Shown here: one piece after another, positions 30,707 through 42,588 of the stretch
How the letters are laid out: each line of letters starts with the position of its first letter
Numbering within the stretch: the stretch's first letter is position 1
DNA from: Methanoculleus chikugoensis
GTDB lineage: Archaea; Halobacteriota; Methanomicrobia; Methanomicrobiales; Methanoculleaceae
NCBI RefSeq assembly: GCF_019669965.1
Contig: NZ_AP019781.1
Span: 868,001 to 932,000 of the forward strand
Direction of reading: 5' to 3'
DNA length: 64,000 nt
Program-made: the position numbers and the translations under genes
Notes under the pieces: generated by a model
What the model was told of the DNA's origin: nothing
What the model saw: the letters and a program-made list of their open reading frames with translations, nothing else
Databases searched by the model: none

Positions 30707-31096
30707 ATGGAAAACCAGAACATTGCCCGGCTCATGGAGGAGGGTGCCGCCTTCTTCCCTGCAGAGAAAGCGGGCAGGCGACCCGTGTGGTACTCGAACC
30801 CGGCATGGACCGGTGTCGCCCTGGCGGATCTCGCGCCGGGAGCGGACACGAAGGGGTCGTTCTCTTCCCATCTCGTCAGGGTGCGTAAGGACTGTGAGGT
30901 TCCTGACCACCTTCACGAGAGCCAGTGGGAGTGGAACGCCATCCTCGCCGGGCACGGGAAGATGATCCTCGATGGGAGAGAGATACTCTTCAAGCCCGGG
31001 GACACCTTCACCACGCCGCCCGGCGTCCGTCACACCGTCATCGCCGACAAGGAGGATCTCGCACTGCTGGCAGTATTTGTTACCGGCCCGAAGTGA
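30707..31096 (+). CDS. small cupin-domain protein
   Basis: A 129-residue single-domain cupin. The metal-binding motifs are DHLHESQWEWNAILAGHGKMI (His pair and Glu) and TTPPGVRHTVIAD (second His). The N-terminal 35 residues are a small cap. Such proteins bind a metal and a small organic ligand; the substrate is unknown. It follows adf closely in the same direction and is probably cotranscribed, which hints at a role in alcohol or ketone metabolism. The ATG at 30707, with GGGAG just upstream, is preferred over the in-frame start at 30674. Confidence 0.8.
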   Translation: MENQNIARLMEEGAAFFPAEKAGRRPVWYSNPAWTGVALADLAPGADTKGSFSSHLVRVRKDCEVPDHLHESQWEWNAILAGHGKMILDGREILFKPGDTFTTPPGVRHTVIADKEDLALLAVFVTGPK

Positions 31097-31374
31097 TGGC
31101 AGGGGTTTCCCGGCCTCATTCTTCCCGATATCACACCTCCGTGTCCGGTGCCCCCGGGTACGGGGATTTCCGCCCCGTTATCACACATCTCCCTGCTGAA
31201 AAAATCGGCATCTCCACCTTATAAGCCGATGGAACCCACCCGGGGGCACCTTCAATATCCGCCTCATCTTTTTTAAGTAAAGGAGCATTACCCCCCGCGA
31301 CGGCGTTCATCGAGACGATCGTTGTCGGATAGTCGGGAATGTCGGAGTTTGAGTATATACTGAACTTTGCGCAG
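31097..31374. other. gap between the cupin gene and the corA remnant
   Basis: About 280 bp. It contains a repeated cccgatatcacac / cccgttatcacac pair (31126-31185) and a possible TATA (accttataag, near 31218). No gene is recognised. Confidence 0.4.
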
Positions 31375-31540
31375 AATCATGAACGGGCGGATGCCTGCCT
31401 GCCGGGCACCACGACGACGTCGATCCGGGTGGCCGTCTGTCGGCGTATCCATGGCCCGGCCCCGGTGAGTTCGACGCACTCATGCTCCTTCGTGCAGTCG
31501 ACGACCCGGATCGAGAGTTCTCCACAGGTTTTCCTGTTGC
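31375..31540 (-). pseudogene. decayed 5' fragment of corA
   Basis: Read on the minus strand, this matches the first 60 codons of the intact corA at 39703-40701: KTCGELSIRVVDCT, EHECVELTGAGPWI and TRIDVVVVPGRQA parallel KTCGILSIRVIDYT, EHECIELTEAWSWI and TWIDVVGVPER. A segment of about 12 bases and one of about 30 are missing, and a stop follows. It lies 80 bp beyond the end of cooC, in the same orientation as the full-length gene on the other side of the acs operon. Confidence 0.75.
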
Positions 31541-31618
31541 GCCTTCACCGTCCCGGGCAATGCGGGTCCGGACAGTATGATTGCGCCGGAACCGTTGCGT
31601 TGTCCCGGCGCGGCGCCG

Positions 31619-32374
31619 TCACTCCCCTCGCCGGGCGCACTCCTCAACGAGCCGGGCGGCAAGATCGCGCACCGCCGCCCGCGCCGGGCTGTTCTGCGGG
31701 ATCCCGACGATCGGCGTCCCGGCAAGATCCGCCTCCCCTATGCCCGGGTCCTCCGGGATACGGGCGATGAGGGGGAGATCGCTCTCGATAGTGTCGTCGC
31801 CCCGGTCACGGTTGACGACGAGGAAGATCCTCTCCCGCGAGAGGCCGAGCGACTCCGCGAGGTCCCGGATGCGGCCGGCGGTCCGCATCCCGCGGGCCCC
31901 GGGATCGCTCACGATCAGGAGGACCTTCGGGCTCTGGATCGTCCCCCGGGCGATATGCTCCATCCCGGCCTCGGAATCCACGACGACGAGCCGGTAACCA
32001 CGCTCAAGCGTCTCGATGCACTCGGTGAGGAGGGCGTTCGGGAAACAGTAGCACCCCGACCCCTCCGGCCGGCCCATGGCAAGGAGGTCGTAGCCCTCCG
32101 CCTCCGCGAGCGCCCGGCGGAACCGGTATCTGACATATCCAGTCCGGTCCATGCCCGGGGGGATGGACCGGGTGAAGGCCTCCTCCCGCATGCTCCCGAG
32201 CGTCTCGGTGAGGGCGATCCCGAGAGCCTCGTGGAGGTTCGCGTTCGGGTCGGCGTCCACGGCGAGGATCGGCCGCTTGCCGGCCGCGATCAGCGCATCG
32301 ATCAGGAGCGACGCGATCGTCGTCTTCCCGGTCCCGCCTTTGCCGGATATGACGACGGTGCAGGGCCGGATCAT
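31619..32374 (-). CDS. cooC: CooC/AcsF-type nickel-insertion ATPase
   Basis: A 251-residue MinD-like ATPase that matures Ni-containing CODH or ACS. The deviant Walker A loop GKGGTGKTT is at 11-19, and Walker B-like VDSEAGMEH and VDADPN are present. The metal-binding CxC (Cys108, Cys110 in GSGCYCFPNALL), diagnostic for CooC/AcsF, is intact. It is the last gene of the acs operon, overlapping the upstream gene by 4 bp (ATGA). Since no CODH gene is nearby, its client here is probably the acetyl-CoA synthase A-cluster. Confidence 0.9.
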   Translation of the reverse strand: MIRPCTVVISGKGGTGKTTIASLLIDALIAAGKRPILAVDADPNANLHEALGIALTETLGSMREEAFTRSIPPGMDRTGYVRYRFRRALAEAEGYDLLAMGRPEGSGCYCFPNALLTECIETLERGYRLVVVDSEAGMEHIARGTIQSPKVLLIVSDPGARGMRTAGRIRDLAESLGLSRERIFLVVNRDRGDDTIESDLPLIARIPEDPGIGEADLAGTPIVGIPQNSPARAAVRDLAARLVEECARRGE

Positions 32375-33396
32375 GGCTCCTCACCCCGCAGGCGGCGGGA
32401 GAGCGACGCGGTCGCCGCCATGATCGCGGCGGCCTCTCCCTCGGAGGCGTTCCGGATCCCGCAGGTCGGCGTGATCAGTGACTGGCGGTCGAAGAGGTCG
32501 GGGTCGATGGTCTCCGTCGCGCGGGCGCGGACATCCTGGAACCGGGAGAAGAACGAGTCCGGGCTCTCCGCCGCAAAGACGGCGTGGTCCGCGGGGACGA
32601 TCCCCCAGGCCACCACGCCACCCCGCTCCATGTAGCGGGCGATATCGTCGGCGTAGAGCAGAAACTCGCGGGCGTAGGTCCAGGCGTCGATCGAGACCAC
32701 GGCGGGGGCAAGGCCGAGGACGAATCCCCAGTCGGTGTTGGCGCAGCAGTGGATCCCGAACCCCCCGTCGAGGAGGGCGGCGATATCCTCGATGGCGGAG
32801 GCCGCGACCCCGGCATCCACCGGGACGACTGCTGAACCGAGCGACGCAAGGTAGGGCTCGCTCAGCACGACGAGTGTCGCGCGTGCACCCATCCGTTCCC
32901 GCATCGTCTCCTCGCACCATCTGGCCCGGAGGCCGAGAAGTTTCCCGAGCAGGTCGGCGTACTCCGGGTCGTAGAGGATGGGCCGGCGCGTCTCGTCCAC
33001 CACCTGCATCCCGAAGGTCACCGGGCCGGTCACCTGACACTTGACCAGGAGGGCGTCCGAGAGGTCGCGGCCCAGCATCGCGTGGAACCCCGACCCGTAG
33101 GCTTCACCGACCCGGTAGGGCTCTGCGTTCCGTTCGAGGTAGTCGAGCAGGACCCGCTCCATCGCCTCCGAGGGGTCGGTGCTCCGGTCGACCACGAGCC
33201 CGCTGTCCCGGACCACTCCGCCGGGAAGGTGCTCGGCATCGGCAACGACGATCGCCTCTAAAAGTCCCCGGTTCGGCAGGGTGGGGATGTAAGGGATCCG
33301 TGGGAAGGCCGCGAGCACCGCCCGGCACGCCGCGTCGGGGTCACGGTGGGGAAGCGCCCCCACGCCGGTCGCGAGGAGTTCAGGGGACGGGATCAT
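32371..33396 (-). CDS. MetE-like core methyltransferase (folate-independent methionine synthase type)
   Basis: A 341-residue protein matching only the C-terminal catalytic barrel of cobalamin-independent methionine synthase. The zinc ligands of MetE appear as His216 and Cys218 (GIHCCANTDW), Glu180 (LSEPYL) and Cys312 (TPTCGIRN). The N-terminal folate-binding half is absent. Core MetE proteins (families such as MesA, MesB and MesC) take the methyl group from a corrinoid protein, and some are predicted to use the corrinoid iron-sulfur protein. Lying between the CFeSP activator and cooC in this operon, it probably passes methyl groups from CFeSP to homocysteine, or the reverse. It overlaps both neighbours by 4 bp. 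A different thiol acceptor is possible. Confidence 0.78.
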   Translation of the reverse strand: MIPSPELLATGVGALPHRDPDAACRAVLAAFPRIPYIPTLPNRGLLEAIVVADAEHLPGGVVRDSGLVVDRSTDPSEAMERVLLDYLERNAEPYRVGEAYGSGFHAMLGRDLSDALLVKCQVTGPVTFGMQVVDETRRPILYDPEYADLLGKLLGLRARWCEETMRERMGARATLVVLSEPYLASLGSAVVPVDAGVAASAIEDIAALLDGGFGIHCCANTDWGFVLGLAPAVVSIDAWTYAREFLLYADDIARYMERGGVVAWGIVPADHAVFAAESPDSFFSRFQDVRARATETIDPDLFDRQSLITPTCGIRNASEGEAAAIMAATASLSRRLRGEEP

Positions 33397-35315
33397 GCCT
33401 GCCACGACCTCACCCCCTGCTTCGCCCGGCACGCCTCGAGCGTCTGCTGCACGTGCGGGAAAAGCGCGATGTCCGTATGCGGCAGGAAACAGCTCGACGT
33501 ATACCGGTCCATGAACGACGGGTCCGCGTTCAGCTCGATATACGTGATCCGCCGGGCAAGCCCGTCGAGTTCCTTCCTTCGCCTGCGGTCGACGAGGGCG
33601 ATGTTCGCGCCGGTGATCGCCCCGTTCCCGATGTTCTCGATACACTCGGGGGGTATCTCGGGTATCAGCCCGATGGTGACGGCGTTCTCCTTGTTGAGGT
33701 AGTTCCCGAACGCCCCTGAGAAGCAGACCCTGCTGATATCACCGGGAGCAAGGCCCGCTGCGTCGAGGAGCGTCATGCAGGCGGCATGGATCGCCGCCTT
33801 GCTCATGATCAGGCTCTTGATGTCGTTCTCGGTGATGACGATCTCCTTCCCGATCGACGTCTCCTCCTTCCAGGCCACGACGTACTCGGGGTAATACTGC
33901 CCCTTCCGGATACGGGGGTGATCGAGTTCCAGGTTGATCCCCCCTGTCCGGTCGATGACGCAGGCGCGGAAGAGCTCCGCAAGCAGGTCGATGAGGCCTG
34001 ATCCGCAGATCCCTCGCGGTCGGAGACCGTTGATCGTCGAGACGGACGGCGCGAGGGTGTCGGGGTCGATCCGGACCCGCTCGATCGCGCCCGGGTTTGC
34101 CCGCATCCCGAAGAGCACCTCCCCGCCCTCCAGGGCCGGGCCGGCCGCGCCTGCGCAGGAGAGCATCCAGTCGCTGTTGCCGAGCACGGCCTCGAAGTTC
34201 GTGCCGATGTCCACCATGAGCGTGGCCTCCTCGCGCTCCGCCATCCCGGCGGCCAGGATGTCGGCGATGATGTCGCCGCCGATGAAGTTCGAGACCGCCG
34301 GGAAGGTGTAGACCCCGGCGTTCGTGTGGGCCGCGATGCCGATCCGCCCGGCGGCCGTCGAGAGCATCCGGCGCACGACCGGGATGTAGGGTTCAGCGAT
34401 CATGTAGGCGGGGTCGATCCCGAGGAGGAGGTGGGTCATCACCGTGTTGCCGGCGATCATCACCTCCAGGATCTCCTCGCGGTCGATCCCCGCGGCATCG
34501 GCGGCGGTCGTCAGGGCCTCGTTGATGCTCTCCGCCGCGAGTTGCTGCAGCCGCGCAAGGCCGCTTCTGCGGGAGAAGTTCACCCGCGAGAGGATGTCCT
34601 CGCCGCAGGAGATCTGGCGGTTGTAGTTCGAGGCCGTAGCAAGGATCCGGCCGTCGACGAGACTCCGGATGTAGGCCACGATCGTGGTCGTCCCGAGATC
34701 CACCGCCGCCCCGTAGAGTCTCCCCGTGGTGTCGCCCTCGTCCACGCTGCTCAAGCGGTAGCCGCCGGGGACAAGGGCGACCGTGGCGGTTACGTGCCAC
34801 CCGCTCCGGCGGAGCACCTGCGGGAGGGAGCAGAGGACGCCGAGCGGCGCGTAGACCCTGTTCGGGGGCGGCCCGCCCTGTCGCTCGATCCCCTCGAGCA
34901 GGCGGCCGAGGTCGGGGGTCGTGTCCTCAAGGGACGGCGGTTCGAGGCGGACCTCGTATTTCCGCACGGCGGGGTTGAGCGGGATCTCCTGCATGCCGGG
35001 GATCTCGACGAGGATCTTCTGTTCCTCGATGAGCGACCCGGCGGGGACCTCGACCTGGACGTCGCCGACGACGTACGCCCGGCAGGCAAGGCATACCCCG
35101 CGGGCGATCTCCTCTTCCGAGAAGAACCTGCGGTACTTCTCGCGGTCGAACGACACCGTGCCGTCTTTTACATAGACCTGGCACTTCCCGCACTTACCCT
35201 CTCCGCCGCAGACCACGTTCATGGAGAGGCCGGCAGCGCGGGCCGCGTCGAGGAGGGTCGCCCCCTCCGGCACGGTCACCTTCCGGTAACCCGGGAGGAA
35301 CGTCACGGTCGGCAT
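33393..35315 (-). CDS. corrinoid reductive activator (RACo-like, ASKHA ATPase)
   Basis: A 640-residue protein of the DUF4445/RACo family that reduces inactive Co(II) corrinoid back to Co(I) in an ATP-dependent way. The N-terminus is a [2Fe-2S] ferredoxin domain (Cys36, Cys42, Cys45 and Cys75 or Cys78). A linker follows, then the ASKHA ATPase part with AAVDLGTTTIVAYI, VMIAGNTVMTHLLL and LMVDIGTNFEAVLGN, and a C-terminal Cys-containing tail. It starts at an ATG sharing one base with the acsC stop and ends with a 4-bp overlap onto the MetE-like gene. Size and order match the bacterial acs activator (Orf7). Confidence 0.9.
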   Translation of the reverse strand: MPTVTFLPGYRKVTVPEGATLLDAARAAGLSMNVVCGGEGKCGKCQVYVKDGTVSFDREKYRRFFSEEEIARGVCLACRAYVVGDVQVEVPAGSLIEEQKILVEIPGMQEIPLNPAVRKYEVRLEPPSLEDTTPDLGRLLEGIERQGGPPPNRVYAPLGVLCSLPQVLRRSGWHVTATVALVPGGYRLSSVDEGDTTGRLYGAAVDLGTTTIVAYIRSLVDGRILATASNYNRQISCGEDILSRVNFSRRSGLARLQQLAAESINEALTTAADAAGIDREEILEVMIAGNTVMTHLLLGIDPAYMIAEPYIPVVRRMLSTAAGRIGIAAHTNAGVYTFPAVSNFIGGDIIADILAAGMAEREEATLMVDIGTNFEAVLGNSDWMLSCAGAAGPALEGGEVLFGMRANPGAIERVRIDPDTLAPSVSTINGLRPRGICGSGLIDLLAELFRACVIDRTGGINLELDHPRIRKGQYYPEYVVAWKEETSIGKEIVITENDIKSLIMSKAAIHAACMTLLDAAGLAPGDISRVCFSGAFGNYLNKENAVTIGLIPEIPPECIENIGNGAITGANIALVDRRRRKELDGLARRITYIELNADPSFMDRYTSSCFLPHTDIALFPHVQQTLEACRAKQGVRSWQA

Positions 35316-36649
35316 CAGGCCTTCCACTCCTTCTCCAGGTATCCGGGGAGATCGGCCGCGTCGCGGGGGCCGACCAGCACCTTCCAGCCGGTCGCGTCCT
35401 CGATCTTTCCGGAGAGCGGGGCGGCGTAGCCGGGGATGACGAGGAACCGGTGGTCCACGAGTTCTGCGACGCCGAACTTCTTGAGCGAGTCGGCGACGAG
35501 GGTCTCCGTCAGTTTCCCGCCGGCTACGGCCGTGAGGACCGAGAGCCCCTCCGTGTCCGCTATGAAGAGGTAGCAGGGGATCCGGGATGCCTCCAGGTAG
35601 CCGAGCAGCGTGAAGTAGGTGAGCGAGAAGTTCACCGTGAGGAGGACCGGGGCGGCCGGCCCGGGCTCGTTGATCGGGTAGATGCCCGGCATCACCTGGA
35701 TGGGCTTCTGCGGGTCGGTGTAGATGTTCTGCCGCAGGGTGAGCGCCGCCCCACGCGAGGCGGGGGAGAGCGGGAGGGTGACGATGATCCCTGCATACTT
35801 CAGGATGCCCGCCGCGAGGGCCGCATCGGTCTCCCCGAAGGCGCCGGCGTCGAGGTAGAGGGGGTAGCCGAGCGCAGGCTCGGTCCGCCCGACGGCCGCT
35901 CTCCGGATCTCCGTTGCAGTGGCGATGAAGTCGGAGAGTGACAACGGTGCGGGGTCGAGCACGAGGTCGGGGACCCCGGCCTCCGCGCACTTCACGGCGA
36001 GGACGGCAAGTTCGGCGGGACCGGCGGCCCGGACGGCGAGAGGACAGCCGTAGCGCTTCGCGAGGGCGGTGAGGGCCTCCCAGTTCTCTTCGGTCGCGGC
36101 GTGGACCAGCGGCCGGTACTGCCCCGCGGCCGCGAGGGCCGCCTCGAAGGCTGCAGGGTCGTCAGCGATCAGCGCGAGAGGGAGGCTGCTCCCGCCCCCG
36201 GAGAGCGCCACGGCCTCTGCGAAGCGATCGGGACGGTTGCTCTCGTACTTCACCGCAACTCCGTTGAGGACGAGGTCCTGCCCCACCCGGTGGACGACGG
36301 TCTCTTTGACCGTCTCCACGACAGAGCGCACCTCGTCCTCCGACCAGGCATCGGAGACCTGCACCATGATGCCGGGCGGGTGGTAGAAGGTCTTCTCGTG
36401 CCGGAAGAGAACAAACTCCTCGCCGACCGCGATCGACCGCTCGCCTGCGCCGACCTCGACGAGCCGGACCAGCGGCCGGGTCACCCCGCCGAGGAGGGTC
36501 TTCGTATCGGGGTCGAGGTCCGGGCAGGCCTCGATATCCGCCTTTCCTATGGCGAGTTTCATGGCGAAGGCGAGGCAGGTGGGGTAGCCGCACCTCTTGC
36601 AGTTCGTCTTCGGGAGATGCTTGTAGATGTCGAGTGCTTTCATCGCCAT
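35315..36649 (-). CDS. acsC: corrinoid iron-sulfur protein large subunit
   Basis: A 444-residue gamma-type subunit of CFeSP. The N-terminal [4Fe-4S] site is Cys17, Cys20, Cys25 and Cys42 (TNCKRCGYPTC...EACPDL). A TIM barrel follows and then the C-terminal cobamide-binding domain (NFSLTYFTLLGYLEASRIPCYL region). It carries the methyl group as methyl-Co(III) between the methyl donor and acetyl-CoA synthase. The length fits the bacterial AcsC and archaeal CdhE families. It is 3 bp after acsD. No separate AcsE methyltransferase is encoded nearby, so the methyl donor may be methyl-tetrahydromethanopterin directly, as in archaeal systems. Confidence 0.93.
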   Translation of the reverse strand: MAMKALDIYKHLPKTNCKRCGYPTCLAFAMKLAIGKADIEACPDLDPDTKTLLGGVTRPLVRLVEVGAGERSIAVGEEFVLFRHEKTFYHPPGIMVQVSDAWSEDEVRSVVETVKETVVHRVGQDLVLNGVAVKYESNRPDRFAEAVALSGGGSSLPLALIADDPAAFEAALAAAGQYRPLVHAATEENWEALTALAKRYGCPLAVRAAGPAELAVLAVKCAEAGVPDLVLDPAPLSLSDFIATATEIRRAAVGRTEPALGYPLYLDAGAFGETDAALAAGILKYAGIIVTLPLSPASRGAALTLRQNIYTDPQKPIQVMPGIYPINEPGPAAPVLLTVNFSLTYFTLLGYLEASRIPCYLFIADTEGLSVLTAVAGGKLTETLVADSLKKFGVAELVDHRFLVIPGYAAPLSGKIEDATGWKVLVGPRDAADLPGYLEKEWKA

Positions 36650-36652
36650 GGT

Positions 36653-37564
36653 TCACACCTCAAGGGCCTTCTTGAGCCTCTCCACGGTCAGCGGGTGGCG
36701 GACGCAGACGATCGACGCGCCGGCGACGAATGCGGCGTAGGCGGTGTAGAACTCCCAGGCAACCGCCATCGCCTCCCGATCCGCCGGTGCGGCCTCCCTC
36801 ACCTCCCGGACCGAGAGGGTGTCGGTGGGAGCGCTGATCATCGGCATCGCGAGGTCCGCATCGCCGGAGAGAGCGGCGAGGCGTATCCGCTCCATCACCG
36901 AGTAGGTGTACTCGAACCCGTAGCCGAGCGCACCCGTGTAGGGGTCGATCACGATCCGGTCCTGCGGCACGCCGGTCTCGCGGAGGAGGATGTTCAACTG
37001 CTTGGCCAGGTTGACGTCGATGGGCGACTGGGCGATCACCGCGTGACCGTATGCCAACGCCGCGGCGGCGACGCTCCGGTAGCGGTCGGCCTCCGCGGTC
37101 CCGAGGAGGAGCCGCTCGCCCTCTCCAGCCTCCCCGCAGCGGCGGAAGACCTCGCTGTCGAGTTCCGGCTCGTTGCTCCCCTCGACGATCAGGGGACGGG
37201 CCGTCGCCGCAAGCACCGCCTCCGTCGTCGCGGCGATCGCGTCGAACGCATTAAAACCGCGTTGCTTCGTGCTCGTGAAGTTCAGCCGCACCAGGTCCGC
37301 GCCATAGGTGCGCTCCGCGGCCCGCGCCCACTCATCGGTGTTGTTCGCGAGGTCGCCCACGTAGTCGCGGACAACCGGCGGCCAGAACCGGGGGTCGTCG
37401 CAGATCTCAAGCGCCACCAGGAGCCGGCCGGGCGTCCTTTCGGAGAACGGCAGACTCCGCTCGCCCCCGATGACGCAGGAGACCTCCCGGGTTCCCCCTT
37501 CAGCCTGCGTGGCGCCGAGGCGCACCTCCCGGATGGCCATTCTCTCGTCACTCTTCTCCGTCAC
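36653..37564 (-). CDS. acsD: corrinoid iron-sulfur protein small subunit
   Basis: A 303-residue TIM-barrel delta-type subunit of CFeSP, which pairs with AcsC to cap the cobamide. Recognisable segments are LLVALEICDDPRFWPPVVRDYVGDL, TARPLIVEGSNEPELDSEVF, SPIDVNLAKQLNILL and DPYTGALGYGFEYTYSVMERIRLAAL. The length matches bacterial AcsD rather than the larger archaeal CdhD (about 400-430). Translation probably starts at the GTG at 37564, with GGAGGG 7 nt upstream. The gene follows acsB by 13 bp. Confidence 0.92.
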   Translation of the reverse strand: MTEKSDERMAIREVRLGATQAEGGTREVSCVIGGERSLPFSERTPGRLLVALEICDDPRFWPPVVRDYVGDLANNTDEWARAAERTYGADLVRLNFTSTKQRGFNAFDAIAATTEAVLAATARPLIVEGSNEPELDSEVFRRCGEAGEGERLLLGTAEADRYRSVAAAALAYGHAVIAQSPIDVNLAKQLNILLRETGVPQDRIVIDPYTGALGYGFEYTYSVMERIRLAALSGDADLAMPMISAPTDTLSVREVREAAPADREAMAVAWEFYTAYAAFVAGASIVCVRHPLTVERLKKALEV

Positions 37565-37577
37565 GCACCATCCCTCC

Positions 37578-39614
37578 TCAGATCAGCGACCTCATCGCAA
37601 GCGCGGGATGATCGACGCGCTTGAGGAACGCAACGAGATCCTCGATCGTCGGCGCCGAGACCTCGTCCGCGATCTTCTCGAAAAGGTCCGGCATCCCCTG
37701 TGCGGCGAGTTTCGCCCGCAGCCGGTCGCCGAGTTCCTCTTTCAAGGATGACGGCATCCAGACCACCCTCACGATGCCGTTCTCGGCCTCAAGGAACCTA
37801 TCACTGAGAATGTAGTTCTTTGATATGCCGATGAACCCCGGCGTCTGCGCGCCGCCCCCGATCGTCCCGGCGAGCGTCGAGAAGGTCATTCCGAGCGGCG
37901 TCTCCCCGGTGAACTCCCGGCTGACGATGAGAATGCCGTTCACCTCCGGGACGATCGCCGCGATGCACTCGAAGCACCCGCAGGCGGTCATCGGGTTCTC
38001 GATCATGCTGTAGAGGGCGATCCGATCGACCTCACCGTGGGATGCCTTCTTCACGAACCGGTTCACCCCTGCAAACTCCCCGGAGACGGCGTCCACCGTC
38101 TCCCCCTTCGGGACCGGCTGGTTCGCCCCGGCGGGAGCGATATCGTGGGCAATCCGGGCATCGAGCCAGGTGATCGCCCCGCAGAGCGCCGGCCGCTCCG
38201 GGGTGATGACGCAGACGTGGTTCGGGGCGAACGTCTGGCAGAGGGTGCAGGAGTAGAAGGTCTCCACGTCCTCGTCCTTCATGCCGGCGATCCGTTCGTC
38301 CCGCGCCGCGTAGACCGCCCGGGCCTCCGCGAGCATTTCCTCGACCTTCCGGCGGTCGGTGACCAGCGTCACCTGGACCGCGTCGATGTGATCCGGGAAC
38401 TCTGCCTTGAGTTTGTGGACAAGCAGCGTCCCGATGTCCCGTATCTTAACACCTTTCGCCACCGCCTCTTTTGAGAGCCTGACCCAGATGAGATCCCGCT
38501 GGGCAACGTGCCAGGACCCCTCGCCGTAGTTGATGAAGGTATGGATCCGCCGCTCGAACACCGGTTCGTAGTCCGTCTTCATCCTCGCACCGGCAACATC
38601 CACCAGGATCGCGAGCGGGAGGGCGGAGCCTTCCGGAACGGCGTCGACCTCGGGCCCGACGATGGTGACCTTCCCATCCTCGACCTCCTCGCGGGGCCGC
38701 ATCCGGAGGAGCTCGAAGGCAGGCGTCCTCCCGCCGCCGAACTCCACGTACATCTCCTCTTTGCGGATGCTCTTCCCCTCGAACGCAGGGGAACAGGCCA
38801 TGGGTATCGGGATCGCCGTGACCGTGACCTTGATCCCCCTGAGATCCATTCCCGTCCGAACCGCCTCCACGGGGGCGACTGATAACCACTCCCCTCCCTC
38901 GTAACCCGCGCCTGCCGCGAGGATCGGTATCCCGAGCACCCGCAGGGCGTCGACGAACGCGACCTCTTCGTCGGTGAGGCTCCCGAAGGCGATCACGAAC
39001 GCCTTCGCCCGCTCTGCGGCGTATCCGAGCAGAGAGTGGACGTCTCCCGGCTGCACCCCGCCGAACATCATCGCGACCCGGGCGAGGATGTCGGCGAAGT
39101 GGATGCCCCGGGCGCTCTCCGGCCCGAGCGGCACCAGACGGTAATCCAGCCCCAGGCGGACACCGGCGCCGGAGAGCGCCTCCACGACCCCGCCGGCAAG
39201 GAAGGTGAGCAGCGACTTCTCCTGCATCTCCCGGCAGACGGCCGCGGCGGCATCGGGGCTCTCCGGTCTCCCGACGAGGAGGCCGAGGCCGGTGACGCTC
39301 CCGTCGACCAGGGTGTAGCCGAGCCCCCGGATGACCGCATCGGGGATAAACCCGGTGCAGGGGCTCGCGACACCGCCTTCTCCGGCCATCAGGCACTCGC
39401 AGGCGACGAGGAGGTTGTTGCCGGACTGCCGGTACGCTTCGCGCGCTCCATCCGCGTCCCGTACGGCGATGCCGGTGACGGCGTAGGTCACGGGGAGGGC
39501 GTATGCCGTATCCGCATAGGCGAGCTTCCCGGCGAGTGCCTGCATCCTCGCATCGAGGCCGGTGCGGCCGCGTTCTATCGCCGCATCAAGAGGATCCCTG
39601 AGTCTGTTCTTCAT
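37578..39614 (-). CDS. acsB: acetyl-CoA synthase, bacterial type with N-terminal domain
   Basis: A 678-residue ACS that makes or cleaves acetyl-CoA from CO, methyl-CFeSP and CoA at a Ni-Ni-[4Fe-4S] A-cluster. The cluster ligands are Cys456, Cys459, Cys468 and Cys478, with the Ni-binding Cys545-Gly-Cys547; the spacings equal those of Moorella ACS (506/509/518/528 and 595/597). Residues 1-290 form the extra N-terminal domain (NNLLVACECLMAGEGG, LQEKSLLTFLAGG, FGGVQPGD-like motifs) that binds CODH in bacteria and is missing from archaeal CdhC (about 470 residues). Start 39614 is set by a TATA-like TTTTATG near 39652. No CODH gene is in the window. Confidence 0.94.
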   Translation of the reverse strand: MKNRLRDPLDAAIERGRTGLDARMQALAGKLAYADTAYALPVTYAVTGIAVRDADGAREAYRQSGNNLLVACECLMAGEGGVASPCTGFIPDAVIRGLGYTLVDGSVTGLGLLVGRPESPDAAAAVCREMQEKSLLTFLAGGVVEALSGAGVRLGLDYRLVPLGPESARGIHFADILARVAMMFGGVQPGDVHSLLGYAAERAKAFVIAFGSLTDEEVAFVDALRVLGIPILAAGAGYEGGEWLSVAPVEAVRTGMDLRGIKVTVTAIPIPMACSPAFEGKSIRKEEMYVEFGGGRTPAFELLRMRPREEVEDGKVTIVGPEVDAVPEGSALPLAILVDVAGARMKTDYEPVFERRIHTFINYGEGSWHVAQRDLIWVRLSKEAVAKGVKIRDIGTLLVHKLKAEFPDHIDAVQVTLVTDRRKVEEMLAEARAVYAARDERIAGMKDEDVETFYSCTLCQTFAPNHVCVITPERPALCGAITWLDARIAHDIAPAGANQPVPKGETVDAVSGEFAGVNRFVKKASHGEVDRIALYSMIENPMTACGCFECIAAIVPEVNGILIVSREFTGETPLGMTFSTLAGTIGGGAQTPGFIGISKNYILSDRFLEAENGIVRVVWMPSSLKEELGDRLRAKLAAQGMPDLFEKIADEVSAPTIEDLVAFLKRVDHPALAMRSLI

Positions 39615-39645
39615 GGTGCCATCAGCGGGTGATACTCTGCACACG

Positions 39646-39658
39646 TTCATAAAACATT
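39646..39658 (-). promoter_or_regulatory. probable TATA box of the acs operon
   Basis: The minus strand reads AATGTTTTATGAA, centred about 38 bp before the proposed acsB ATG at 39614, giving a leader of roughly 10 nt. Confidence 0.45.
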
Positions 39659-39702
39659 GTACCCGCGCAGGGTGGCAGCCGCCGGGGTTTTCGGGCCCGG
39701 CG

Positions 39703-40701
39703 TCATATCCACTCTTTCTTCCTGAAGTAGAGGAGCATCGTGGCCACGACGCCCAGCATGAGGCTGAGGACGAGAGGATATCCGAGCGGCGAGTCTTCGA
39801 GCGGTATGTTCCTGAGGTTCATCCCGTAAAACCCGGTGATGAAACTCAGGGGGATGAAGATGCTCGCGACGATGGTTAGGATCGTCGTGATCTCGGCGAG
39901 CCTGTTGTTCTGGTTCGAGGTATGGAGATCCATCACGCCGGAGAGCGTATCCCGGGTATACTCCGCAACCTCTGCCGCCTGGATGCACCGGTCGTATATA
40001 TCCCGGAAGTACGGGATCGTCTCCTTCCGGACAAGGCTCAACTCCCGGCTCGCGAGCGACCCGAGAACCTCGCGTGCCGGCACGGCCGCTCTCCGGATAG
40101 TCAGGAGATCTTCTTTGAGTTCGTAGATCTGCTTCAAGGCAAGCGGATCCGCGGAAGCCAGAACCCTGCCCTGGAGGTCTTCCACCCGGTCGTCGACCGC
40201 GTCGAGGATGGCGAGGTAGACGCTCACGATGGCGTCGAGGAGCGTATACGCGAGGAAGTCCGGCCCCGATCCCCGGATGACGCTCAGTTCGTTCCTGAGC
40301 CGCTCTCTGACCTGTTCGAAGACCCGGAATGGCTGCTCGCGGAACGTTATGACGTAGTTCTCCCCGAAGATCAGGCTGACCTGCTCGCTTGCAACCCTGC
40401 CGCCTCTCTCCGAGAGCATCCTCGCGATGACGGCGACGTAGTTCCCGAACTCCTCCACCTTCGGCCGCTGGTCCGGGGCCGTGATATCCTCCATCGTGAG
40501 CGGGTGGATCCCCGCCTGTCTGCCGAGGATCACGAGTTCGTCGCGCTCCGGCACCCCGACGACGTCGATCCAGGTGACCGTCTCCCGGCCGATCCACGAC
40601 CATGCTTCGGTGAGTTCGATGCACTCGTGCTCCTCGATGCGGTCCTGCGTGTAGTCGATCACCCGGATCGAGAGTATCCCACAGGTTTTTTCCGGCTGCA
40701 T
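39703..40701 (-). CDS. corA: CorA-family divalent cation transporter, paralog 1
   Basis: A 332-residue CorA-type Mg2+/Co2+/Ni2+ channel. It has the large cytoplasmic N-terminal domain, a long stalk helix, two C-terminal transmembrane helices and the selectivity motif YGMN (GFYGMNLRN), ending RKKEWI. It starts MQPEKTCGILSIRVIDYTQ at 40701. It lies directly upstream of the acs operon and shares its orientation; supply of Co or Ni to the corrinoid and ACS is a possible link. A decayed copy of its 5' end sits at the far side of that operon. Confidence 0.9.
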   Translation of the reverse strand: MQPEKTCGILSIRVIDYTQDRIEEHECIELTEAWSWIGRETVTWIDVVGVPERDELVILGRQAGIHPLTMEDITAPDQRPKVEEFGNYVAVIARMLSERGGRVASEQVSLIFGENYVITFREQPFRVFEQVRERLRNELSVIRGSGPDFLAYTLLDAIVSVYLAILDAVDDRVEDLQGRVLASADPLALKQIYELKEDLLTIRRAAVPAREVLGSLASRELSLVRKETIPYFRDIYDRCIQAAEVAEYTRDTLSGVMDLHTSNQNNRLAEITTILTIVASIFIPLSFITGFYGMNLRNIPLEDSPLGYPLVLSLMLGVVATMLLYFRKKEWI

Positions 40702-40853
40702 CAAACCTCCGGACTGCCTGCTCCCCGGGGAAGAGGCGGATACACCTCGCCGGTCTCGGGGAATCGCCCGGCGAGCCGCCCGGCAGGAGTTATGGACACC
40801 ATCCCGGGGAAGGGGCATTCATCCTAAGGTATAAAACACCACTGCCGGGCCGA
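40702..40853. other. short gap upstream of corA
   Basis: About 150 bp with no gene. A possible promoter for corA (ggtataaaac, read on the plus strand near 40829, or the complementary motif) is not clear enough to assign. Confidence 0.3.
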
Positions 40854-41034
40854 TCATGCATCTTTTACCGGCCCGCCGTCGTAGACGATGATCTTCTCGG
40901 TCGCGACAGCGATTCCCGCACCGACGATCCCGTAGGCGACCGGGACGTAATTGGTGTCGATCCGGATCCGGGGGAGGATGACGCCGATAACGAAGACCTT
41001 TAAACTTGATACCGTTCTCCGAAACGAGTAGCAT
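40854..41034 (-). pseudogene. small protein gene split by a +1 frameshift
   Basis: From an ATG at 41034 the frame reads MLLVSENGIKFKG and then loses protein character. In the +1 frame, starting at the tttaaagg run (about 40996-41003), a protein-like sequence continues: KVFVIGVILPRIRIDTNYVPVAYGIVGAGIAVATEKIIVYDGG to a TGA at 40854. Joined, they give about 60 residues with a hydrophobic Gly-rich centre. It is either a pseudogene, a sequencing slip or a shifty site. The function is not recognised. Confidence 0.35.
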
Positions 41035-41228
41035 TCCCACTCGTCCCTGATGCGCCGGAGATCACGATGACGGCGACGATTCAGAGCGCCGCACGCCTCT
41101 CTTCCTGCCTCTCCGGGTGTCGCCGGTTCGCCTGCATGCCCCTCGCCCTGGTCCCGCCGGCGCACGCGGGCTTCGACGCAACGGAAGATACCGGTATCCG
41201 GTTATGAGCGGGGGGTGCCGGTCGCGGT

Positions 41229-42275
41229 TCAGATCCACCCTTTCTTCCTGAAGTAGAGGAGCATCGCGGCCGCGACGGCCGCCATGGAGGCGAGGGCGGC
41301 CGGATAGCCCCAGGGATGGCTGATCTCCGGCATGTAGGCGAAGTTCATGCCGTAGACCCCGGCGATGAAGGTGAGCGGGATGAAGATGGTGGCGATGACG
41401 GTGAGGACCTTCATGATCTCGTTCATCCGGCTGCTCTGGCTTGAGAGATAGACGTCGAGCGTCCCGGATATCATATCCCGGTAGGTCTCCACCGTCTCGG
41501 CGACCTCTATGGTGTGGTCGTAGACATCCCGGAAGTAGACGAGCGTCGTTTCATCGATCAGGGGCGATTCGCCCCGCTCGAGTTGTGCGACTGCTTCGCG
41601 GAGCGGCCAGACCGAACGCCGGAGCGCGATTAAGGACCGTTTTAACGCATATATCGCCTGCAGCGTCCCGCGGTCGGGGTCCGCCACCACCTCCTCCTCG
41701 ACGATCTCGACACGCTCCCCGAGTTCCTCGATCTTGGCGAAGTAGCCGTCGACGATCGCGTCCAGCAGAGCGTGGAAGAGGTAGTCCGGCCCGACGCTTC
41801 GGAGCCTTCCTGCTCCCGCACGCAGGCGCTCCCGGATACGCTCGAAGACGTCGCCCGGCTGCTCCTGGAAGGATACGACGTAACCCCTCCCGAGCACCAA
41901 GCTGACCTGCTCGCTGTTGAACTCGCCGTCGCCGGGAGCGAGCATCCGGACCGCGACGTAGAGGTAATCGCCGTAGTCCTCGATCTTCGGCCGCTGGCGG
42001 GCGTTCGCGATGTCCTCCAAGGTCAGGGGGTGAATCCCGACGGCATCCCCGACCGCCTGGATCACCCCGGTATCGTGGACGCCGTCGACGTCGATCCAGG
42101 TGACCCCCTGAGGGAGGACGGCGATCTGGATCTCCCCCGGCAGCGTGTACGTTCGCTCACTGAAGCGGGCCTCATCGTAGTCGATGACCGTGACGGTGAC
42201 CGGTCGTGAGCGGGAAACGTCGGTTTCGGTAATGCGTCCGCTCGATCCCCGGCTCTGGCCGTCGTGCGGGCTCAT
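41229..42275 (-). CDS. corA: CorA-family divalent cation transporter, paralog 2
   Basis: A 348-residue CorA with the same layout as paralog 1 and clear similarity throughout (VTWIDVDGVHDTGVIQAVGDAVGIHPLTLEDI; AGVYGMNFAYMPE; LLYFRKKGWI). The YGMN filter motif is intact. The first 30 residues are polar and specific to this copy. The ATG at 42275 precedes the conserved part. Two CorA copies within 2.5 kb plus a third remnant at 31.4 kb point to local duplication and movement. Confidence 0.9.
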   Translation of the reverse strand: MSPHDGQSRGSSGRITETDVSRSRPVTVTVIDYDEARFSERTYTLPGEIQIAVLPQGVTWIDVDGVHDTGVIQAVGDAVGIHPLTLEDIANARQRPKIEDYGDYLYVAVRMLAPGDGEFNSEQVSLVLGRGYVVSFQEQPGDVFERIRERLRAGAGRLRSVGPDYLFHALLDAIVDGYFAKIEELGERVEIVEEEVVADPDRGTLQAIYALKRSLIALRRSVWPLREAVAQLERGESPLIDETTLVYFRDVYDHTIEVAETVETYRDMISGTLDVYLSSQSSRMNEIMKVLTVIATIFIPLTFIAGVYGMNFAYMPEISHPWGYPAALASMAAVAAAMLLYFRKKGWI

Positions 42276-42333
42276 GGAAGGTTGGATTGATTCCGGTTCA
42301 GATGAATCTGCCGAAAAAGAGTGGGTTCGTGCT

Positions 42334-42588
42334 TCACCTGCTTGCTGCCGCCACCTCATCCTCTCTCTTCGCCTTTGCGGCGGCACGGCCGATCAGGATC
42401 ACCACAATCACCGCGATGATCGTCACGACGACGGCATACACTAACATGGCAACGAGCGTGCTCTGTTCCCCGAATATGAGGGCAAAAAGTTCCTGAATGG
42501 CGCCGTTCCATGCGAGAGCGGCGACCAGACCAAATGCGGCCGTGACGAGGGCCGCTATCTTGTCGATGACCTCTGTTTTGAAAGACAT
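42334..42588 (-). CDS. DUF5654-type small membrane protein
   Basis: An 84-residue protein with two transmembrane helices (LVTAAFGLVAALAWNGAIQELF and LVAMLVYAVVVTIIAVIVVILIG) and a basic tail. The WNGAIQ turn between amphipathic and hydrophobic segments is typical of the archaeal DUF5654 family, whose function is unknown. It is encoded leftward, upstream of corA paralog 2, and may share its transcript (59-bp gap). Confidence 0.7.
   Translation of the reverse strand: MSFKTEVIDKIAALVTAAFGLVAALAWNGAIQELFALIFGEQSTLVAMLVYAVVVTIIAVIVVILIGRAAAKAKREDEVAAASR

Follow-up and report, generated by a model that had tools for sequence, protein, structure and literature searches.

In a 64,000-nucleotide window of the Methanoculleus chikugoensis genome (contig NZ_AP019781.1, positions 868,001 to 932,000) we identified a six-gene operon, acsB-acsD-acsC-RACo-mesB-cooC, that probably encodes an acetyl-CoA decarbonylase working without carbon monoxide dehydrogenase (CODH) and coupled to methionine synthesis. 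The genes are co-directional on the minus strand (31619-39614 of the window, or to 39650 with an alternative acsB start), and their junctions, in order, are +13, +3, -1, -4, and -4 bp. The genome is a single contig of 2.62 Mb that is 99.6% complete. All six frames are intact and under purifying selection (ratio of nonsynonymous to synonymous substitution rates, dN/dS, 0.07-0.25 versus six relatives). The operon is a real, intact, and conserved module.

An earlier note, made from the DNA sequence of the window, had named these six genes and described them as tightly packed, and both statements are borne out by the junctions and the family models. AcsB matches NCBIfam NF040764 over its full length with 904 bits (cut-off 800), AcsC scores 526 bits against PRK04165 (cut-off 306), and AcsD scores 346 bits against PRK04452.1-2 (cut-off 280). 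The RACo protein carries four RACo-type Pfam domains, and the CooC protein is a P-loop ATPase of the CooC/MinD type whose CxC motif is kept in 67 of 67 relatives. Also as the note had it, neither a CODH subunit nor AcsE is encoded in the operon or adjoining it. No Rfam element was detected within positions 31000-41200.

Search for a carbon monoxide dehydrogenase

A genome-wide search for cooS/acsA and cdhA, suggested in the earlier note, returned no CdhA above cut-off. The prismane/CODH search identified one CooS, 475 kb from the operon, and a second, HCP-like protein. The CooS passes the TIGR01702 CODH model (697 bits, cut-off 478). We considered it as the missing CODH and rejected it: its nearest relative in the PDB is CooS-V of Carboxydothermus hydrogenoformans (674 bits; the next scores 392), and Glu replaces the cluster-C residue Cys295, with H261, C333, C446, C476, and C526 kept. 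The Cys295-to-Glu replacement is common to all CooS examined from AcsB-positive Methanoculleus. CooS-V lacks CODH activity and holds a Ni-free hybrid cluster (PMC9311411); it is assigned to clade D, the members of which are mostly solitary and inactive where tested (PMC13056359). Given that the only CooS is of the CooS-V type and that cdhA is absent, no functional-type CODH is recognizable in this genome from its sequence, a verdict that rests on the CooS-V precedent. No AcsE was identified in the genome, the sole PF00809 protein being dihydropteroate synthase.

Many Methanomicrobiales carry a CooS-V-type protein that passes the NCBIfam CODH model. Near the CooS-V-type gene of this genome is a gene for an 844-aa surface-type protein with long TPTVNVTP repeats and no NCBIfam match (Table 1).

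An acetyl-CoA synthase with a reduced docking domain

The six A-cluster cysteines are present in the AcsB of the window, in 72 of 72 relatives, and in three of three reference bacteria (C. hydrogenoformans, Clostridium autoethanogenum, and Acetoanaerobium). The claim that all A-cluster ligands are kept holds, judged against these three rather than against Moorella. The note had further ascribed to AcsB a bacterial-type N-terminal domain for docking CODH, and this needs qualification. The large N-terminal region is there, but the CODH_A_N domain (PF18537) reaches only 22 bits, below the cut-off of 32.2, and covers 32 of 83 positions. All five methanogen AcsBs scanned fall below the cut-off (17-31 bits, about 30 of 83 positions), whereas an archaeal CooS-AcsB fusion (98 bits) and the AcsB of Acetoanaerobium (105 bits, the whole model aligned) have the complete domain. 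Compared with bacterial AcsB, the N-terminal region of the methanogen proteins is missing 16 or more residues, a stretch the size of a helix, and the spacing between the two motifs that flank it is 49-53 in 67 methanogen AcsBs versus 70-73 in two bacteria. We take this stretch to be a CODH contact, given the name of the domain and general knowledge of CODH/ACS structures (ACS, acetyl-CoA synthase). Part of the predicted CODH-docking domain is gone from the methanogen AcsBs, and every A-cluster cysteine is kept.

Plain identity over the catalytic part was dropped as a means of separating AcsB from CdhC (44-48% to CdhC, against 54% to C. hydrogenoformans and 45-48% to two other bacteria). A tree was therefore used. 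The 72 Methanomicrobiales AcsBs, which span several families, form one clade (IQ-TREE, ultrafast bootstrap [UFB] 100) that groups with AcsB of bacteria and with the archaeal fusion (UFB 99), and CdhC stands apart on a long branch. With three bacterial and five CdhC sequences for comparison, the tree speaks to the type of the protein, and the donor and the direction of transfer are beyond its reach. This grouping supports the assignment of AcsB to the bacterial full-length type rather than to CdhC, in agreement with the earlier suggestion that the set is bacterial in character and unlike archaeal cdhABCDE.

The MetE-like protein is a putative MesB

Sequence searches with the MetE-like protein returned no match in Pfam, NCBIfam, or the PDB. 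For its AlphaFold model (mean predicted local distance difference test, pLDDT, 89), the first 18 PDB matches found by Foldseek are cobalamin-independent methionine synthases. Its four zinc ligands (Table 1) are invariant in an alignment of relatives and agree in kind and spacing with the zinc positions of Dehalococcoides mccartyi MesB, 214, 216, 235, and 311 (PMC7857596). In a profile comparison with the MesA of the same genome, the HxC and C motifs align. Zinc ligands, modeled fold, and gene context together support well the placement of this protein in the MesB family of corrinoid-dependent methionine synthases, with that activity predicted.

Distribution and coupling of AcsB and MesB

We surveyed 159 Methanomicrobiales genomes that are at least 85% complete. 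Full-length AcsB was identified above cut-off in 73, and two more have AcsB split between contigs, giving 75. Almost all loci of sufficient length show the order acsB-acsD-acsC-RACo-mesB-cooC. Conservation of this gene order in other Methanomicrobiales, which the earlier note had proposed to check, extends to about half of the order; the operon is not confined to this strain.

Among the 75 AcsB-positive genomes, 34 have CdhA, 19 have a true-type CooS (17 checked for Cys295 and two assigned by best match), and 22 have neither. The latter include the single-contig genomes G000 (this genome), G027, G036, and G061. CooS is encoded about 2 kb downstream of cooC in three loci, and downstream in one further locus. 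A CODH gene adjacent in relatives had been named in advance as a finding that would speak against the CODH-free interpretation; it does occur, as an exception among the relatives.

Counted over related genomes rather than as independent events, AcsB and MesB occur together in 74 genomes, with AcsB alone in one and MesB alone in one. The contig of the MesB-only case starts inside acsD, so its AcsB lies past the contig end; that of the AcsB-only case ends inside RACo. MesB was found in none of the 11 genomes that have archaeal CdhA without bacterial-type AcsB.

Both acsB and mesB are absent from more than half of the surveyed genomes of the same genus (G028-G035, G037, G038, G040, G043-G045, G047, G049, G052, and G054), which provide natural operon-free controls. 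Among 247 genomes sampled across the phylum, only Methanomicrobiales and one other family have full-length AcsB above cut-off. In that family, which lies outside Methanomicrobiales in the same phylum, genomes G177, G159, and G168 encode a CooS-AcsB fusion of 1378-1407 aa with a complete CODH_A_N domain, adjoining acsD, acsC, cooC, and RACo. In another genome, G145, a CooS with Cys295 intact is clustered with a 4Fe-4S protein, NuoE/NuoF-like proteins, and further iron-sulfur subunits, and this cluster adjoins an archaeal cdh operon.

Proposed function

Via the encoded proteins, the methyl group of acetate could be passed to methionine. Acetate would be converted to acetyl-CoA by the acetyl-CoA synthetases of the cell, two of which (AMP-forming) were identified above cut-off and intact; the in-frame TAG codons flagged in both are the natural stops of these genes. 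AcsB, its Ni-Fe A-cluster loaded with nickel by the CooC/AcsF-like ATPase, would split acetyl-CoA into CoA, CO, and a methyl group. The corrinoid of AcsCD, the corrinoid iron-sulfur protein (CFeSP), would accept the methyl group, and RACo would re-reduce CFeSP once its cobalt is oxidized. MesB may then pass the methyl group from CFeSP to homocysteine, forming methionine. The CO would exit the cell or be oxidized in relatives that have a true CODH. We infer the direction in which ACS runs, the direct donation of the methyl group from CFeSP to MesB, the loading of nickel by CooC, and what becomes of the CO. All six genes have a part in this scheme, and CODH is not required. Among the roles that the earlier note had listed, methyl transfer for methionine is favored by the strict coupling of MesB to AcsB, a CODH supplied from elsewhere is disfavored by the 22 CODH-free genomes, and for ACS running on free CO no positive support was obtained.

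The broader proposition is that methanogens of this order run a CODH-independent, acetyl-CoA-splitting branch to methionine, with the methyl group derived from acetate, CO as waste, and a free-standing ACS that evolved off its docking to CODH. We find this plausible, stopping a little short of calling it probable.

Several observations weigh against the proposed function. The main doubt is the need for a second route, which is unexplained because MesA is present and methyl-tetrahydromethanopterin (methyl-H4MPT) is abundant in methanogens. This genome encodes a MesA (390 bits to PRK00957, cut-off 258; Table 1), as a result of which MesB would be an additional methionine synthase, and MesA-type proteins occur in 156 of the 159 Methanomicrobiales genomes. 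Archaeal CFeSP can take its methyl group from methyl-H4MPT, and the methyl may therefore not stem from acetyl-CoA. Some form of CODH is present in 53 of the 75 AcsB-positive genomes. Finally, by alignment, the equivalents of the homocysteine-binding residues Ser433 and Asp599 of MetE appear to be Ala14 and Ser179 in this MesB; most of its relatives have Asn at the Asp599-equivalent site, and the homocysteine-binding residues are reported to be mostly conserved in MesB.

In the strongest rival, methyl-H4MPT charges CFeSP directly for MesB, and AcsB is no more than a two-way side valve between acetyl-CoA and methyl-CFeSP. AcsE would be unneeded if archaeal CFeSP methylates itself, as general knowledge of Cdh complexes allows, and the methionine methyl group of methanogens has been reported to come from methyl-H4MPT (PMC7005905). 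We nevertheless regard this arrangement as unlikely, as MesB without bacterial-type AcsB was seen only at a contig end, MesB is absent from all 11 genomes with only archaeal Cdh, and AcsB is under strong purifying selection. Somewhat less likely again is that ACS works synthetically, making acetyl-CoA from free CO provided by the environment, by partners, or by a CODH elsewhere in the cell, and so sparing acetate. ACS accepts free CO in vitro, the 53 genomes with CdhA or a true-type CooS could be read this way, and so could the four in which CooS is downstream of the operon. The synthetic direction is difficult to reconcile with the 22 genomes without CODH, the eroded docking subdomain, and the lack of AcsE; furthermore, 34 genomes already own an archaeal CODH/ACS for that job, and MesB is left unexplained.

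That the CooS of this genome supplies or removes CO, making the system an ordinary split CODH/ACS, has in its favor the TIGR01702 score given above. We consider it improbable in view of the Cys295-to-Glu replacement, here and in every CooS examined from AcsB-positive Methanoculleus, and of its closeness to the inactive CooS-V (PMC9311411); moreover, G036, G046, G048, and G056 keep the operon with no CooS above cut-off. Least probable of all is that the operon was acquired horizontally, has no function, and is decaying or transient; the signs of selection and the conserved gene order already go far to refute this. Its distribution in the genus is indeed patchy, with many same-genus genomes lacking it, but the frames are intact, dN/dS is low (0.07-0.25), and the genes are monophyletic over several families. 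The operon is missing from about half of these hydrogen-using genomes, and for this reason we set aside cleavage of acetyl-CoA as a source of the CO ligand for [NiFe]-hydrogenase.

Operon features and neighboring genes

Two genes for CorA-type Mg/Co transporters immediately precede the operon in the same orientation, and a link to cobalt supply is possible. Coordinates are collected in Table 1.

Table 1. Genes of the operon and other loci discussed in the text (window positions unless a genome or locus is given)
Feature	Coordinates	Strand	Remarks
acsB, acetyl-CoA synthase	37578-39614	-	678 aa, ATG at 39614; in-frame upstream ATG at 39650 gives 690 aa; reduced CODH-docking subdomain (predicted)
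acsD, CFeSP small subunit	36653-37564	-	303 aa, GTG start
acsC, CFeSP large subunit	35315-36649	-	444 aa, [4Fe-4S] motif intact
RACo/AcsV-type reductive activator of CFeSP	33393-35315	-	640 aa
mesB-like core methionine synthase	32371-33396	-	341 aa; zinc ligands H216, C218, D237, C312
cooC/acsF-like nickel-insertion ATPase	31619-32374	-	251 aa, GCYCF (CxC) motif
CorA-type transporter	39703-40818	-	
CorA-type transporter	41229-42386	-	
CooS, CooS-V type	G000:C1:1380289-1382199 (L004:7290-9200)	-	
Surface-type protein	L004:1133-3667	+	844 aa
MesA	G000:C1:2496359-2497213		
CooS-AcsB fusion	L297:6555-10775	+	
CooS-AcsB fusion	L298:8167-12300	-	
CooS-AcsB fusion	L299:6237-10361	+	
CooS cluster of G145	L149:148-5719	-	

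Implications and comparison with known systems

If the proposed function is correct, an archaeal acetyl-CoA synthase works without CODH, the scheme proposed for Dehalococcoides extends to methanogens, and a possible connection to acetate use in these hydrogenotrophs is provided. The operon would also offer a natural free-standing ACS for study of the reverse ACS reaction. For annotation there is a trap: genome surveys would wrongly score such organisms as CODH-positive, and may overcount CODH, because a CooS-V-type cooS passes the standard CODH model.

No description of a Dehalococcoides-type route in archaea without functional-type CODH was found in the literature, most subscription papers being outside the search, and a paper on Methanoculleus bourgensis MAB1 holds nothing on CODH or acetyl-CoA. 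The CODH-free state, the CooS-V decoy, the eroded docking domain, and the strict coupling of AcsB to MesB appear to be new. The link between mesB and acsCD in methanogens is already known: for some methanogens, operons that join mesB to acsC and acsD were published in 2021, as was the joint presence of MesA and MesB in some Methanomicrobiales (PMC7857596). The MesB studied here resembles that family in its length of about 340 aa, its HC-D-C zinc set, and its acsC/acsD operon. It differs in being coupled strictly to AcsB, not only to CFeSP, and apparently in two residues of the homocysteine-binding site, which read Ala and Ser. In that study we found no statement that CODH is absent.

With the CODH/ACS of bacteria such as Moorella, Carboxydothermus, and C. 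autoethanogenum, the operon shares full-length AcsB, a CFeSP of bacterial size, RACo, and CooC/AcsF; it differs in having no CODH subunit, no AcsE, and a sub-threshold CODH_A_N domain. The archaeal Cdh complex (acetyl-CoA decarbonylase/synthase, CdhABCDE) has the same A-cluster chemistry, but AcsB has an N-terminal region that is missing from CdhC, and CdhA and CdhB have no counterpart in the operon. The CooS of this genome, known here from sequence, is like CooS-V of C. hydrogenoformans in standing alone and in the Cys295-to-Glu replacement.

The closest likeness is to the incomplete Wood-Ljungdahl pathway of D. mccartyi, in which CODH is absent, the methionine methyl group comes from acetate, and the same scheme has been proposed (PMC7005905, PMC7857596). 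Both have AcsB, AcsCD, and MesB, lack CODH and AcsE, and activate acetate by acetyl-CoA synthetase. In D. mccartyi its own MesB (cbdbA481) is encoded with S-adenosylmethionine-cycle genes, whereas here the genes form one operon together with RACo and CooC. The hosts here are hydrogenotrophic methanogenic archaea that also have MesA and the H4MPT-dependent C1 pathway of methanogenesis. The comparison suggests that these microbes route the methyl group of acetate to methionine, as has so far been proposed mainly for Dehalococcoides.

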